Shown: positions 29,264-34,571 of the stretch, piece by piece | Layout of the letters: every line of letters starts with the position of its first letter | How positions within the stretch are numbered: position 1 is the first letter of the stretch | Source of the DNA: Halopelagius inordinatus | Lineage (GTDB): Archaea > Halobacteriota > Halobacteria > Halobacteriales > Haloferacaceae | Length of the DNA stretch: 64,000 bases | Assembly (NCBI RefSeq): GCF_900113245.1 | Contig: NZ_FOOQ01000001.1 | Coordinates: 1,178,001-1,242,000 of the forward strand | Reading direction: 5' to 3' | The notes under the pieces: generated by a model | Seen by the model: the letters and a program-made list of their open reading frames with translations, nothing else | What the model was told of the DNA's origin: nothing | Databases searched by the model: none | Position numbers and translations under genes: made by a program

Positions 29264-30028
29264 ATGGTTCAGGGAGGCGAAACGGGCCCCGCGGGCTCCG
29301 ACGGCGCGACGGATTTCGCGCGCGCACTCAACGAACTCAAGGGACGCGGGAGCACGTTGCTCGTCGTCGGGTCCGTGCCCGAGGAGATGTACGCGAGGAT
29401 ATCCGCGAAGATGCTCGGAGACGGCGACGCGTCGAACCGCCGCCGTCTCGTCGTGACTCCAGCGGGCGCCTCCCGCAGAGACACGAGATTGGAGGGCGTC
29501 TCCCGTCGGACGCCCGAGTGGGCGCGCATCGTCGAATACGAGACGCGCGCTCGAAGTCCCGCGGCGGCCGTAGAAAGCGGAACGTCCGCCGTCTCGTCGC
29601 CCGCCTCCCCGACGAACGGCGACGGAACCGCGGACGCGGGCGTTCGCGACCCCCTCGCGAACGTCGTCGACGGGGAGATAACCGAACTCGGCGTGGAGAT
29701 AGCAAAGACGATAGCGCAGTTCGACGGTATCGCCTCGGGTCTCGCCCCGGCGGAACTCCGCGTGGCGTTCGACTGTCTCCCCTCGTTGCTCTCGGAGTAC
29801 GACCGCCGGACGGTGTTTCGGTTCCTCCACGTCCTCGGAAACAACGTTCGGTCGGTCGGCGGGATGGGCCACTTTTGGCTCCCGCAAGACCGAGAGACGG
29901 AGGTAGTGCGACTCTTCGAACCGCTGTTCGACGCCACGGTCGAACTCCGACTCGACGGCCACGAACTCGCACAACGGTGGCATTTCCGCGACGCGGAGAT
30001 ATCCTCTGAGTGGCTCTCGGTCGGGTGA
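29264..30028 (+). CDS. Degenerate KaiC/RecA-like P-loop protein (DUF7504-like)
   Basis: A 254-residue protein. 'S-T-L-L-V-V-G-S-V-P-E-E-M-Y' has the place of a Walker A loop but lacks the G-K-S/T, and the C-terminal part ('R-T-V-F-R-F-L-H-V-L', then 'L-F-D-A-T-V-E-L-R') looks like the last strands of a RecA/KaiC-type fold. A Pro/Ala/Thr-rich linker (about residues 95-130) splits it. I recall haloarchaeal family DUF7504 for such proteins, from memory only. It ends 61 bp before the CHAT gene, so the two are probably linked in function. The likely job is sensing or scaffolding, not ATP hydrolysis. Confidence 0.72.
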   Translation: MVQGGETGPAGSDGATDFARALNELKGRGSTLLVVGSVPEEMYARISAKMLGDGDASNRRRLVVTPAGASRRDTRLEGVSRRTPEWARIVEYETRARSPAAAVESGTSAVSSPASPTNGDGTADAGVRDPLANVVDGEITELGVEIAKTIAQFDGIASGLAPAELRVAFDCLPSLLSEYDRRTVFRFLHVLGNNVRSVGGMGHFWLPQDRETEVVRLFEPLFDATVELRLDGHELAQRWHFRDAEISSEWLSVG

Positions 30029-30089
30029 GCGTCGTCCCGGCGGGCGTTCACCCATACGCTTTTAGTCGAGAACGAAGACTGGTGAGATA

Positions 30090-32246
30090 ATGGACCAGTT
30101 CGGCGGTCGGACCGAGACGGGGGCGTCGAACGAGCACCTCCAACTCTCGTTTCGGACGACCGACGAGGGGACTGGACTCCTCGCGGCGGACCCGATAGAG
30201 CGACACCAGTTTCGGCTCTCGACGCCGAATCCCGTCTCGCCGACCGCTTCCGACCCCTCGGAGTTTTCGTTTCCCGCCGACGCCGCCGTCCGTATCCGAA
30301 CCGATAGAATCGACCTGCAGACGGTCGTTTCCGTCTGCGTCAGAGACGACGCCGGAGAGATGCTGGCCCGGACCGAACACTTCGCCGAGGAGTCGTTCGG
30401 CCCGGGGACGTACAGCGTCGAACTGTTCGCGCCGATAAAGCTGTATCTGCGGGTCACCGGGCCGTTCTCCGTCTCCTCTGACGCCGACCGGACGACCATC
30501 GACTTCGGCGAGGAGACGGCGGTTCTCGTCGGCGGCCGGTCGAACCACGAGCGACCGGCGGCGACGATTACGACGCCCGACGACCCGCGGGCGGTGATGG
30601 ACGCGATGTCGTATCTCGGCTCCGCGCTCAAAACGACCACCGTAGAGCGGTCGTACCCCACGCTCCGGGGACACCCGCCGCTTATCGAACGCGGCGACCG
30701 TTTCGAGGTTCCGGACGGACTGGAAGCGCCCGACACCGGCGTGACCGTGGAACTCCCCGCCGAGTACAGCTATCTCTACGTCGCAGCGCCGTTGGTGTAC
30801 TATCTCGGTGCGACGGTGAAGGAGGGCCAGACGCCGCGAATCGTCACGGACGAGGGGTTCGTCTACGACCTCGACACCCCCGCGGGATTCGAAGTCGAGG
30901 TCGAACGAGTGCTGAAACGGGCGTTCTTCCTCGACTGCCTGACGCGGACGGAGGGGTACTACGAGGTGGACCTCCACGAACGCCGGGCCGTCGAGGACGA
31001 ACTCGACGTGGAGTTCGCCGAGTTGTACGACCGGTCGCTCCCCGCGCAGTTGGAGACGTATCTCGGCGTCTCCCACGGCGTCGTCGCGGACCACGTCCCC
31101 GAGTGGAAGTTGACGGCTCACATCGCCCCGACCGCCGAAAACGTCGAAGTCGTCCCGTTCGCGGCCAACGACCTCGCGGTAGTCCGGACGCCGCGTTCGA
31201 CCCCGACGACGAGTCCGGCGGCGCAGGCGTCGGCGGTCGACGAGTTCCTGCGCACTGCCGGACCCACCGGCGGACGAGCGAGTCCGGTCGGCGACTTCAC
31301 TCGGAGCGCGACTCCCCCCGGTGCCGCGCCCGACAGAGAGTACGTCCGGCCCGAACGGACCGACTCCATAGAGCAGGCGTGGATAGGCGAGGGGACGCCC
31401 GTCGGGGCGAGCAAGGCGTCGCTGCAGGCGTACCGAAACCGCCTCGACCGCGAACCGAACGAGGGCGACATCGGCATCACCGTCGTCTGCAACGACCCGA
31501 AGATGGCCGAGGAACGCGACGTCGTCGAAGGCGTCTACGGCTCTCGCGAGGAACTCCCGTTCGACGTGCGGATGCACTACGACCTGTCGGTGGCGGAACT
31601 CCGCGACGTACTCGCGGCCGACACGGAGTTTCTCCACTACATCGGCCACATCGACGACGGCGGGTTCCAGTGTGCCGACGGCGCGTTAGACGTCTCCGCG
31701 GTGGACGACGTCGGCACCGACGCGTTCCTCCTCAACGCCTGTCAGTCGTACGAACAGGGTACCCACCTCGTCGACGCGGGCGCGATAGCGGGCATCGTGA
31801 CGCTCAACGACGTGGTGAACGGCGGAGCGGTGAAGATCGGACAGAACCTCTGTCGACTGCTCAACTCCGGCTTTCCGGTCCGGAGCGCGCTCGAAATCGC
31901 GCGAGACGATAGCGTGATCGGAAACGACTACATCGTCGTCGGCGACGGCAGTTTTTCCGTGACGCAAGTTCAGGCCGCGTTCCCCAACTCCTGTACGATC
32001 ACGCGGCGCGCAGAGAACAGAGTCGCCGTTGACTATCGAATATATCCCGGTTCGGCCAACGGGATGGGAGCACTCGTCAAACCGTTTCTGCCGGGGAACG
32101 AACAGCACTACATCGCGTCCGGGAGCGTCGACGTGTTCGAGTTGACGGAGTCGGAACTGGCCGAGTTCCTCTCTTTAGAGAACGTGCCGATTATCTCTGA
32201 CGGAGGTCTGCGGTGGAGTTCGACCACCTCGGTCGAGGATATCTGA
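30090..32246 (+). CDS. CHAT-domain (caspase-like) protein
   Basis: A 718-residue soluble protein. Residues 430-700 look like a CHAT peptidase: 'F-L-H-Y-I-G-H520-I-D-D-G' carries the His and 'L-L-N-A-C551-Q-S-Y-E' the nucleophile Cys, in the right order and spacing. The first 400 residues are beta-rich and unrecognised; a Ser/Thr/Pro linker runs about 365-420. CHAT proteins are caspase relatives in prokaryotic signalling and immunity (for example gRAMP-associated Csx29). The gene follows a degenerate P-loop protein and is convergent, by 0 bp, with a 47-residue membrane peptide. A role in controlled proteolysis is inference; substrate unknown. Confidence 0.8.
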   Translation: MDQFGGRTETGASNEHLQLSFRTTDEGTGLLAADPIERHQFRLSTPNPVSPTASDPSEFSFPADAAVRIRTDRIDLQTVVSVCVRDDAGEMLARTEHFAEESFGPGTYSVELFAPIKLYLRVTGPFSVSSDADRTTIDFGEETAVLVGGRSNHERPAATITTPDDPRAVMDAMSYLGSALKTTTVERSYPTLRGHPPLIERGDRFEVPDGLEAPDTGVTVELPAEYSYLYVAAPLVYYLGATVKEGQTPRIVTDEGFVYDLDTPAGFEVEVERVLKRAFFLDCLTRTEGYYEVDLHERRAVEDELDVEFAELYDRSLPAQLETYLGVSHGVVADHVPEWKLTAHIAPTAENVEVVPFAANDLAVVRTPRSTPTTSPAAQASAVDEFLRTAGPTGGRASPVGDFTRSATPPGAAPDREYVRPERTDSIEQAWIGEGTPVGASKASLQAYRNRLDREPNEGDIGITVVCNDPKMAEERDVVEGVYGSREELPFDVRMHYDLSVAELRDVLAADTEFLHYIGHIDDGGFQCADGALDVSAVDDVGTDAFLLNACQSYEQGTHLVDAGAIAGIVTLNDVVNGGAVKIGQNLCRLLNSGFPVRSALEIARDDSVIGNDYIVVGDGSFSVTQVQAAFPNSCTITRRAENRVAVDYRIYPGSANGMGALVKPFLPGNEQHYIASGSVDVFELTESELAEFLSLENVPIISDGGLRWSSTTSVEDI

Positions 32247-32390
32247 TCAGGGGCCGTAGATACCGGTGTGGTTCCCCGCCGCCACCGCGCCCGCCTGCGA
32301 CAGCAAGACGAGAGCGGAGAACAGGACGCCCATCATGCGCGGGTGTTCGGAGAGGTACTGTGCGACCGCATTGTTGTCGTCTTCGGACAT
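32247..32390 (-). CDS. 47-residue single-span peptide (DUF7503-like)
   Basis: Reading the minus strand from the ATG at 32390 gives 47 codons: a charged N-terminus with A-V-A-Q-Y-L-S-E-H-P-R, a hydrophobic stretch M-M-G-V-L-F-S-A-L-V-L-L (about 19-38), then a short tail ending N-H-T-G-I-Y-G-P. I recall similar haloarchaeal peptides (E-H-P-R-M-M-G-V-L-F, ending in G-P) as family DUF7503, not verified. It is predicted to insert in the membrane. It ends on the base after the CHAT stop. An AT-rich TATA-like region (about 32415-32425) precedes it. Confidence 0.72.
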   Translation of the reverse strand: MSEDDNNAVAQYLSEHPRMMGVLFSALVLLSQAGAVAAGNHTGIYGP

Positions 32391-32600: not shown

Positions 32601-33200
32601 CTACGTTTCGTCGAACTCTTCGAACTCCACGTCGGCCCCGAGATCGCGATAGACGGCCTCGATGTCGTCGTCGTCGTCGAGATTCTGGAGCGTCTCGTCG
32701 AGTTCGGCTCTGAGTTCTTCGAGGCGTCCGTCGAGTTCGGTGTACTCCTCGCTGCTTTCGAGCGACGTCGCGTCTTTCTCCGATTCGAGAAGCGCCTTCT
32801 TCGAGGCGAGCGAGAACAGTTCCTTCACGCCGTCGTCGTAGGAGTTGCGCAAGAGGAGATTCGATACCGTCTCTTCCAGTGAATCCTTCGAGACGGGCTT
32901 TACGAGGTAGTCGTCGAAGCCCATGGCGACGATGTCGAAGTCCGGTTCGACTGCGGTCACCATCGCCACGCGGCACTCGAAGCCGCGATTCCGAATCTCG
33001 GTCAACGCTTCGTCGCCCGAGAGATCGGGCATCCGACGGTCCAAGAGCACCACATCTACGGCTTCGTCGAGTGCCTCGAGCGCCTCGCGGCCGCCGTAGG
33101 CGACGCGGACTCGATACTCGTCCTTGAGCCATGTTGCGTACAGGTCGGCGAGGTCCGGCTCATCTTCGACGATGAGCACGAGCGGCTGGTCAGCACTCAT
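32601..33200 (-). CDS. HalX-type response regulator
   Basis: A 199-residue response regulator. The receiver domain (1-120) has the acidic pocket E12-D13, the phosphoacceptor D54 in V-V-L-L-D-R-R-M-P, and the L-V-K-P-V lysine. Residues about 125-185 form the HalX output domain, a coiled helical hairpin found in haloarchaea ('L-x-S-K-K-A-L-L-E-S-E-K' and 'E-L-D-G-R-L-E-E-L-R-A-E-L'). No DNA-binding domain is seen, so it relays phosphoryl signals. The partner kinase is not nearby. A dyad at 33214-33228 overlaps its promoter. Confidence 0.9.
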   Translation of the reverse strand: MSADQPLVLIVEDEPDLADLYATWLKDEYRVRVAYGGREALEALDEAVDVVLLDRRMPDLSGDEALTEIRNRGFECRVAMVTAVEPDFDIVAMGFDDYLVKPVSKDSLEETVSNLLLRNSYDDGVKELFSLASKKALLESEKDATSLESSEEYTELDGRLEELRAELDETLQNLDDDDDIEAVYRDLGADVEFEEFDET

Positions 33201-33213
33201 ATGTATGTTTGTG

Positions 33214-33228
33214 GTGTTCCGAGAACAC
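33214..33228. promoter_or_regulatory. Inverted repeat upstream of the HalX regulator
   Basis: GTGTTC-CGA-GAACAC is a perfect dyad with six-base arms, 14-28 bp before the ATG at 33200. Its place over the promoter suggests an operator, but no regulator can be named. Confidence 0.4.
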
Positions 33229-33390
33229 TCACGTCACGGAATGTTTCGCGGGGGCATATGAATATACCCCTTAGTCCGGGGCTGGTGAGCGGTTCGGAGG
33301 GCGGGCGGTTTCTCACCACTATCTGTCAAAGAGCGCCGCCAGTTGGTATAGGTTCCGGCATCGGACGGCGACGGAGAACCGACGCGTTCG

Positions 33391-34464
33391 TCACCGAGCG
33401 TAGTCGAGGACGGTGATTCGGGTCGCTTCGACGTCTTCGAGGATCGCTCCCCAACCGCCGACGGTGTACCGCTCTCGGGCGCCGTCCGTCTCGACGGTCA
33501 GACAGACCTGTCCGGCGAGTTGCGATAGCGGCGGCGAACCGTCCGTCTCGCCCGCCCCGGCGTAGTTCACGTCGACGATTTCTCCGACCAGTTCGGCGGT
33601 GTCGCCCGTCTGCGTGTCGAACCCCTCGATGCGAGCGCGGACTCCGACGCCCTCCGCGAGACACGGTTCGACGTCTCGGACGCACCGCCTGAGGTCCGCG
33701 TAGACGAACGGCGGGTCCGTCGGGCGGACGCTGTACACCTCGTCCCACACCTCCCACAGGCAGGTCTGGAAGTACCAGTGAAACACGTACGTGAGAGAGT
33801 AGTCGTCGGCGAGAACGCCGTACTGGTTGAGCGAGTGCGAGTGCGGCGCGAAACAGGTTCCGGTGCGGTCGACGAGGGCGAGGAACGGCGTCGGCAGCGT
33901 TCGGTGTCGTGCCTCCGTGACGACGCCGTCGAACTCCACGTCGTCTACGGCCGCGTCCGGGTCGGTGTGGAGCGTCGCCTTCACGACCGCGCCGTTCGAG
34001 AGCGCTTCGCTGAGCGCCGGTTTCAGCGTCTCGTACTGCTCCGGGGTCGCGGCGAGTTGGACCTCGGTTTCGGCGTCGCGGACGAGCGACGCGGCGCGTT
34101 GCAGCACCGTCTCGAAGCGCTTGACGATGCTCAGTTTGTGCTGGTCGACCTCCGGTTCGTTCCACCGATGTTCTATCTCGTCTGCGGCGTCTTCGAGCAT
34201 CGACGCTCGCCCCCTGAGGTCGTCGAGGACGACGGCGGGGTCGCACGCGCGGGCTTTGAGACTCTCCTGTTCGTACGTCTCGATGTAGCCTTTCGTCTCC
34301 AAGTCTCGGAGCACGTCGTAGATGCGCGCCGACGGCACGGCACACGAGTCGGCCAGTTCGGTCGCACTCGCCGTCCCGAGTCGGAGGAGCGTGTTGTACG
34401 CCTCCGCTTGGTACTGCGAGAGACCGGCGTCTTCGAGTGCGTCGCGCAACTCCGTGGAATCCAT
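33391..34464 (-). CDS. TrmB-family transcriptional regulator
   Basis: A 357-residue regulator. The N-terminal winged HTH ('A-x-E-L-A-D-S-C-A-V-P-S-A-R-I-Y-D-V-L-R-D-L') is the TrmB signature; a coiled helix (about 75-105) and a PLD-like middle domain follow ('L-A-A-T-P-E-Q-Y'), with a C-terminal beta-rich effector domain (about 245-355). TrmB proteins of haloarchaea control sugar and amino-acid metabolism. The start ATG 34464 is preferred over an upstream frame. Effector and targets are unknown. Confidence 0.88.
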   Translation of the reverse strand: MDSTELRDALEDAGLSQYQAEAYNTLLRLGTASATELADSCAVPSARIYDVLRDLETKGYIETYEQESLKARACDPAVVLDDLRGRASMLEDAADEIEHRWNEPEVDQHKLSIVKRFETVLQRAASLVRDAETEVQLAATPEQYETLKPALSEALSNGAVVKATLHTDPDAAVDDVEFDGVVTEARHRTLPTPFLALVDRTGTCFAPHSHSLNQYGVLADDYSLTYVFHWYFQTCLWEVWDEVYSVRPTDPPFVYADLRRCVRDVEPCLAEGVGVRARIEGFDTQTGDTAELVGEIVDVNYAGAGETDGSPPLSQLAGQVCLTVETDGARERYTVGGWGAILEDVEATRITVLDYAR

Positions 34465-34571
34465 CGTACGACCCGATATCCAGCCCAATTAATCAATAAC
34501 CTTTGGGACCGGACGGCTCTCGGAGCGGTCTCTCGGCTCCGACGCGTCGAAGAAGGAAGGAAAGCGGGTCG

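Follow-up and report, generated by a model that had tools for sequence, protein, structure and literature searches.

A haloarchaeal CHAT-fold protein and its hypervariable convergent peptide: a candidate cognate ligand–receptor system

Organization of the locus

The window analyzed here is a stretch of 64,000 nucleotides from the genome of the haloarchaeon Halopelagius inordinatus. It contains a locus of three genes, encoding a DUF7504 protein, a 718-residue protein with a CHAT (caspase-like) fold, and, on the opposite strand, a DUF7503 peptide (Table 1). The open reading frame of the CHAT gene starts 61 bp downstream of that of DUF7504, and the stop codons of the convergent CHAT and DUF7503 genes abut. 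An earlier note on this DNA had described the same three genes, including the 61-bp gap and the convergent 47-residue peptide, and both the open reading frames and the Pfam matches agree with that description. Below, the CHAT gene and the peptide gene are considered as a putative receptor and its ligand.

Table 1. Features of the locus; coordinates are those of the window
Feature	Position	Strand	Basis
DUF7504 protein, 254 residues	29264..30028	+	PF24336, E 6.5e-58; AlphaFold2 model, pLDDT (predicted local distance difference test) 88; same-strand neighbor of 85/162 CHAT copies
CHAT-fold protein, 718 residues, putative peptide receptor and cysteine protease	30090..32246	+	AlphaFold2 model, pLDDT 87
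His520 codon (predicted catalytic His)	31647..31649	+	Kept in 176/184 homologs
Cys551 codon (predicted catalytic Cys)	31740..31742	+	Kept in 176/184 homologs
CHAT residues 625–718, hypervariable C-terminal domain, proposed specificity role	31962..32243	+	Divergence jump at codon ~625; co-diverges with the peptide tail
DUF7503 gene, putative propeptide, 47 residues and stop	32247..32390	-	PF24335, E 1.4e-21; coding part 32250–32390
DUF7503 residues 1–38: acidic N-terminus, HPR, hydrophobic stretch, AVAA (AxA)	32277..32390	-	Column statistics, 130 peptides
DUF7503 residues 39–47 (GNHTGIYGP), the hypervariable tail and putative mature signal peptide	32250..32276	-	Tail entropy; GP ending
Contiguous hypervariable block, CHAT 3' end and peptide tail, putative specificity cassette	31962..32276	.	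Nucleotide divergence profile

Pairing of the CHAT and peptide genes

A convergent DUF7503 gene lies directly behind 144 of the 162 distinct CHAT copies with enough flanking sequence, mostly within 150 bp; two further copies have a diverged peptide of similar build, ending in TGP. The conserved neighborhood on which the earlier note had staked its proposal is thus observed. At the level of genomes, 71 of which were scanned for PF24335, DUF7503 is present in 43/51 genomes with CHAT and in 0/20 genomes without it (Fisher p 1.4e-11). The peptide tail differs for every paralog in all multi-copy genomes checked (17/17).

DUF7504 is found upstream of CHAT, on the same strand, at 85 of the 162 copies, and is sometimes fused to HalOD1. 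It forms a large haloarchaeal family without a tie to CHAT, with 1–14 copies per genome, present in 51/51 genomes tested, with or without CHAT. Since the pairing with DUF7503 is tight, whereas DUF7504 occurs at about half of the copies and independently of CHAT, the core unit consists of CHAT and the peptide, not DUF7504. As a core component DUF7504 is ruled out by the same counts, including its presence in all CHAT-less genomes tested, and the role of an obligatory sensor, given to it in the earlier note, does not hold. The description of the protein as a degenerate RecA/KaiC-like one was correct: its model is KaiC-CI-like, with a RecA-like fold (Foldseek, KaiC CI E 3.8e-6), while, unlike the KaiC CI domain, the protein has no Walker A (GKT), which is absent from all 36 aligned family members.

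In Halorussus salinisoli (L199:594-8201), two complete CHAT–peptide units lie about 2.5 kb apart, and their tails differ. A possible orphan DUF7503 peptide is seen at L216 (G034), with no CHAT gene in the 11 kb covered there.

Fold and distribution of the CHAT protein

The AlphaFold model of the CHAT protein (pLDDT 87) has a caspase-like fold at residues ~456–626. Its structural matches are separase (Z 18.2), SAVED-CHAT 8tl0 (Z 17.5, 2.3 Å over 169 residues), gingipain (Z 17.5), and Csx29 (Z about 14). The predicted catalytic residues His520 and Cys551 lie in the context HYIGH...LNACQS and are retained in 176 of 184 homologs, the exceptions being fragments or divergent degenerate copies. The model and the conservation of the pair bear out the earlier reading of these residues as a CHAT-type pair and support the assignment of the C-terminal third of the protein to the CHAT/caspase fold (clan CD).

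Sequence comparisons are less telling. Pfam CHAT (PF12770) matches 10/24 homologs, with the best E 2e-5, while the 718-residue protein of the window has no match there and no family match of its own in Pfam, NCBIfam, and PADLOC scans; a profile search of PDB sequences yields no relative, the similarity to separase and gingipain being undetectable at the sequence level. The N-terminal part is beta-rich at ~20–160 and alpha/beta thereafter, and residues ~230–455 are partly covered by the separase and Csx29 alignments; hence, of the approximately 400 unrecognized beta-rich residues reported earlier, only the first portion fits that description. The C-terminal domain (625–718), overlooked at that time, proves to be the key part of the protein.

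CHAT homologs are found in 125/148 genomes of Haloferacaceae and in 179/194 genomes of the class (about 92%), with up to ten copies per genome, a spread well above what chance would give. In a wider sample of the phylum, distant relatives are seen in one other family only (4 genomes), without a recognizable peptide.

A divergent branch of the family (L209, L210, L212, L213, and L221) lacks His520/Cys551 or the entire catalytic region, and its loci showed no peptide. The branch retains the N-terminal half, with R187, P196, D282, R286, and mostly W339; the module formed by it may be combined with different C-terminal parts. Three tandem CHAT genes at L211:4998-11224 have no recognizable peptide; the His–Cys pair is kept there, and the position of Glu475 is occupied by Pro.

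Structure of the DUF7503 peptide

DUF7503 peptides are mostly 42–48 residues long. The alignment of 130 peptides shows [HN]P[RK] with an invariant Pro, followed by the consensus MxGVLFTxxLLLSQAG; Arg or Lys precedes the hydrophobic stretch in all 130, and [AV]xA follows it in 114. The core (residues 1–38) is strongly conserved, with non-synonymous divergence (pN) of 0.034–0.059 in close pairs. The tail comprises 7–10 residues (9 residues in 96/128) and is hypervariable, the entropy being mostly 2.7–3.2 bits per position, so that 116 distinct tails are seen among 130 peptides. It is nearly free of Asp, Glu, Lys, and Arg, for which reason a caspase-type cut inside the tail was rejected, and it ends with Gly-Pro in 133/144 peptides.

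Communication propeptides of Gram-positive bacteria usually carry their signal in the final four to ten residues (PMC10075063). The layout of DUF7503 (a basic residue, a hydrophobic core, small-x-Ala, and a short variable end) matches that of these propeptides, and, judged by its sequence, the peptide looks like a propeptide with a signal-like core, an AxA site, and a short variable end.

At seven loci (L092, L093, L176, L180, L182, L192, and L202), the tails end with TIG, TIS, TIR, or similar residues, not with GP; two of them, L092 and L093, have a HalOD1–DUF7504 fusion upstream. The divergent long peptides of L086 and L090 have five residues beyond GP (GP-DPDQD and GP-EPIRD), as if they were trimmed back to GP.

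Co-variation of the peptide tail and the CHAT C-terminal domain

The main test used 57 non-overlapping nearest pairs, corrected for the overall CHAT divergence; the comparisons here and below are between species, the loci are sampled unevenly, and the pairs are partly of shared ancestry. Tail divergence correlates best with CHAT residues 650–669 (r 0.66), the ten best windows of the scan all fall within 645–709, and the maximum over the scan was reached in 0/1000 permutations (p<0.001). For the remainder of CHAT, the correlation averages about -0.1. No relation to the CHAT C-terminal domain is seen for the peptide core (r about -0.15), the codons of which adjoin those of the tail. Amino-acid co-variation (0.55) is much stronger than synonymous co-variation (0.18). 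The same region of CHAT is identified by the all-pairs test with within-cluster permutations, and the top corrected mutual-information pairs link CHAT positions 666, 664, and 699 with tail positions.

In 77 of 126 cases, the nearest relative by the CHAT body differs from that by the C-terminal domain. Here, the tail is closer to that of the C-terminal-domain relative (p 0.004), and the peptide core to that of the body relative (p 0.005).

Borders of the variable block

Among close pairs whose tails differ, nucleotide divergence is 0.12–0.18 up to codon 624 of CHAT and 0.37–0.40 from codon 625 to the stop; in the peptide gene of the same pairs, the tail has a value of 0.33 and the core one of 0.13. 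Synonymous divergence (pS) in pairs with differing tails is 0.70 for CHAT 625–718 versus 0.35–0.37 elsewhere. Because synonymous divergence doubles within the block, the data point to whole divergent alleles being exchanged or long maintained, not merely to fast amino-acid change. The pair formed by the H. inordinatus locus and that of its congener shows the pattern as well, with 0.58 in CHAT 625–718 and 0.16 elsewhere. In the most divergent blocks the alignment is less certain; well-aligned close pairs show the same pattern.

DUF7504, taken as a control, has no comparable C-terminal excess. In CHAT copies without the peptide, C-terminal divergence is 0.185, versus 0.431 in copies with it, at a body divergence of about 0.12–0.13, a comparison that is supportive only, as such copies are few and mostly from one clade. 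The explanation that the C-terminus simply evolves fast is rejected on three grounds: synonymous divergence is elevated as well, DUF7504 has no such excess, and the excess is smaller in the peptide-less copies. No donor lineage could be assigned to the exchanged cassettes.

Two peptide-less CHATs of Halococcus (L157 and L160) have near-identical C-terminal domains (0.05) but bodies that are 0.13 apart; each of these domains differs by 0.60 from that of the peptide-bearing L162. They are possible "listener" alleles.

A putative cognate ligand and its receptor

The tail and CHAT 625–718 vary together, separately for each paralog, in one DNA block, and we therefore read the tail as a putative ligand of this domain. 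The interpretation that we favor, giving it somewhat better than an even chance, is a two-gene cognate recognition system, in which a ligand and its receptor gate a caspase-fold protease and are inherited as a pherotype-like cassette. The DUF7503 propeptide would comprise a signal-sequence-like core, an AxA site, and a tail of 7–10 residues ending with Gly-Pro; the tail would be read by the C-terminal domain (~625–718) of the adjacent CHAT protein, and its binding would set the protease (His520/Cys551). Because the two genes are arranged tail to tail, the ligand and the binding domain are encoded contiguously, and the matched pair could be exchanged as a single cassette of ~300 bp.

The steps of this scheme differ in strength. 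Recognition between the tail and CHAT is strongly supported by the co-variation, and direct binding of the tail by CHAT is highly probable. Export of the peptide and cleavage after AxA are fairly probable, and, as the core is signal-like and followed by AxA, we favor export over action in the membrane or inside the cell. Whether the tail would then serve as a private cell-to-cell signal, with re-uptake or surface sensing, is a matter of even chances. The protease output, which we infer, is the least certain of the four steps; the frequent neighbors, DUF7504 or HalOD1–DUF7504 proteins, are candidate substrates. In the broadest form of this interpretation, a shade below an even chance, these would be archaeal ribosomal peptide pheromones: nearly all haloarchaea would export allele-specific peptides ending with Gly-Pro, with a caspase-fold protease as the receptor, specificity would pass between lineages as a 300-bp cassette, and paralogs would provide several private channels per cell.

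Several observations weigh against the ligand–receptor interpretation. Pairs with identical tails also have a C-terminal excess (median ratio 2.0 vs 3.3, p 0.03). A part of the correlation is explained by shared recombination, the CHAT end and the tail being neighbors in the DNA, although shared recombination belongs to the proposed model as well. The pN/pS ratio of the tail is moderate (0.3–0.5, that is, below 1) and by that measure does not indicate diversifying selection; positive selection on the tail is, hence, not claimed. The core is conserved beyond the needs of a mere export signal, and one group of peptides has no terminal GP. A cytoplasmic receptor would require re-uptake of the peptide, and no dedicated transporter was found nearby. 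Finally, the entire case, i.e., export, cleavage, binding, and proteolysis alike, is built on sequence and prediction.

The main alternative, which we consider unlikely, though less so than the others, is that the peptide stays inside the cell or anchored in the membrane, where it would inhibit, anchor, or switch its cognate CHAT protein, e.g., as a lock-and-key safety device of a stress response or of abortive infection by phages, with viral antagonists and not communication driving the diversification. It explains why the hydrophobic core is strongly conserved, why CHAT and the peptide are paired one to one, and why the tail co-varies with the C-terminal domain, and CHAT proteases are indeed known from CRISPR-linked immunity (cf. 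the near folds 8tl0 and Csx29). However, the positive charge ahead of the hydrophobic stretch, together with the AxA site, suggests that the tail exits the cytoplasm and is thereby separated from a CHAT protein in the cytosol; a defense system is not usually found in as many as about 92% of the class genomes; and there is no link to defense in PADLOC or viral scans. No annotated defense system was found by PADLOC or NCBIfam, and neither CHAT nor peptide relatives were seen in the viral collections scanned. Viral carriage or mimicry was likewise rejected, as no CHAT relative and no peptide are present in the viral contig collection, and no peptide in phages.

Kin discrimination or self-poisoning, in which the peptide would be a small toxin of membranes or an effector between cells and the C-terminal domain of CHAT would provide the matching immunity or trigger, is improbable. 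Private alleles of each paralog and exchange of matched pairs are typical of polymorphic toxin–immunity loci, and a hydrophobic peptide of ~45 residues would suit a toxin; but immunity needs no strictly conserved His–Cys protease, and the peptide core is nearly invariant, whereas in polymorphic toxins it is usually the active part that varies.

We assign a similarly low probability to the model of the earlier note, in which DUF7504 is a sensor and the peptide is either a substrate of CHAT or a downstream membrane effector in stress, death, or defense. The conserved neighborhood, the active-site pair, and DUF7504 beside about half of the CHAT genes agree with it, and the Arg/Lys before the hydrophobic stretch (130/130) is a possible P1 residue for a gingipain- or separase-like protease. 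The tail, however, is hypervariable, nearly uncharged, and tracks the C-terminal rather than the catalytic domain, as a ligand would, while the conserved part of the peptide is signal-like; DUF7504 is dispensable and non-specific. Of the undescribed haloarchaeal system postulated there, the conserved CHAT protein with a small membrane-type peptide stands, while the chain of sensor, protease, and membrane effector in defense has no specific support. Least probable is the absence of any ligand–receptor link, i.e., a mere hot spot of recombination or mutation between converging genes: it agrees with the raised synonymous divergence and with the contiguity of the two stretches, but not with the sharp ends of the block, which both fall within genes (at codon ~625 of CHAT and between tail and core of the peptide), the excess of amino-acid over synonymous co-variation, the invariant GP within the block, the weaker excess in the absence of the peptide, or the tails that always differ within a genome.

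Comparison with known systems

In the agr loci, the peptide ligand and the part of the receptor that binds it are jointly polymorphic, and the matched alleles stay together. ComQXP pherotypes are specificity loci with a jointly polymorphic peptide ligand and ligand-binding part of the receptor (PMC4408185). The CHAT–peptide locus resembles both in its contiguous hypervariable block of ligand and binding domain between conserved flanks, as seen in between-species data. However, ComQXPA and agr employ a membrane histidine kinase as the receptor and a peptide-modifying enzyme, neither of which is present in the CHAT–peptide unit, which is archaeal and has a caspase-fold protein and convergent genes; it works like pherotype loci and is not a member of them.

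In RRNPP systems (Rap–Phr, PlcR–PapR, AimR–AimP), propeptides of 21–50 residues with a signal-like N-terminus and a variable signal in their final 4–10 residues are encoded adjacent to the gene of an intracellular receptor (PMC10075063). DUF7503 is similar in its length, its position next to a putative receptor gene, and its variable last residues. The RRNPP receptors, though, are TPR proteins of Firmicutes with 250–500 residues, whereas the CHAT protein has 718 residues and no TPR (Pfam scan), and its peptide gene is convergent; by the length and TPR content of the receptor, the CHAT–peptide system is not RRNPP.

SAVED-CHAT (8tl0) and Csx29/Craspase share the caspase-like fold and the His–Cys pair with the CHAT protein; Pfam and PADLOC identified neither a sensor domain (SAVED or TPR) nor a CRISPR effector among the proteins of the locus, and, unlike in the CRISPR CHAT proteases, the C-terminal domain apparently reads a small partner peptide as the ligand. 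Separase and gingipain (clan CD), the best fold matches, have no cognate hypervariable peptide.

No described system matches the CHAT–peptide unit. In the literature searched, DUF7503 and DUF7504 are unnamed, and no description of peptide-based communication in archaea was found. To our knowledge, no caspase-fold protease with a hypervariable partner peptide as its trigger has been reported earlier. If experiments confirm the proposed scheme, this would be the first communication peptide and receptor in archaea, and it would bear on the origin of caspase-type signaling and of self/non-self recognition.

Haloferax volcanii produces an unidentified density signal of 3 kDa or less, which withstands proteinase K and was interpreted as a small molecule (PMC12240190), and has a strong caspase-like activity, the gene for which is not known (PMC3615174). 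PF24335 has a match in H. volcanii, and exactly one CHAT copy is present in 15/15 Haloferax genomes tested, making the locus a concrete single-copy candidate for both the quorum signal and the caspase-like activity. This is a lead, not evidence, for either.

In the window, the locus is adjoined by genes of a HalX response regulator and a TrmB-type regulator, both on the minus strand (32601–34488).

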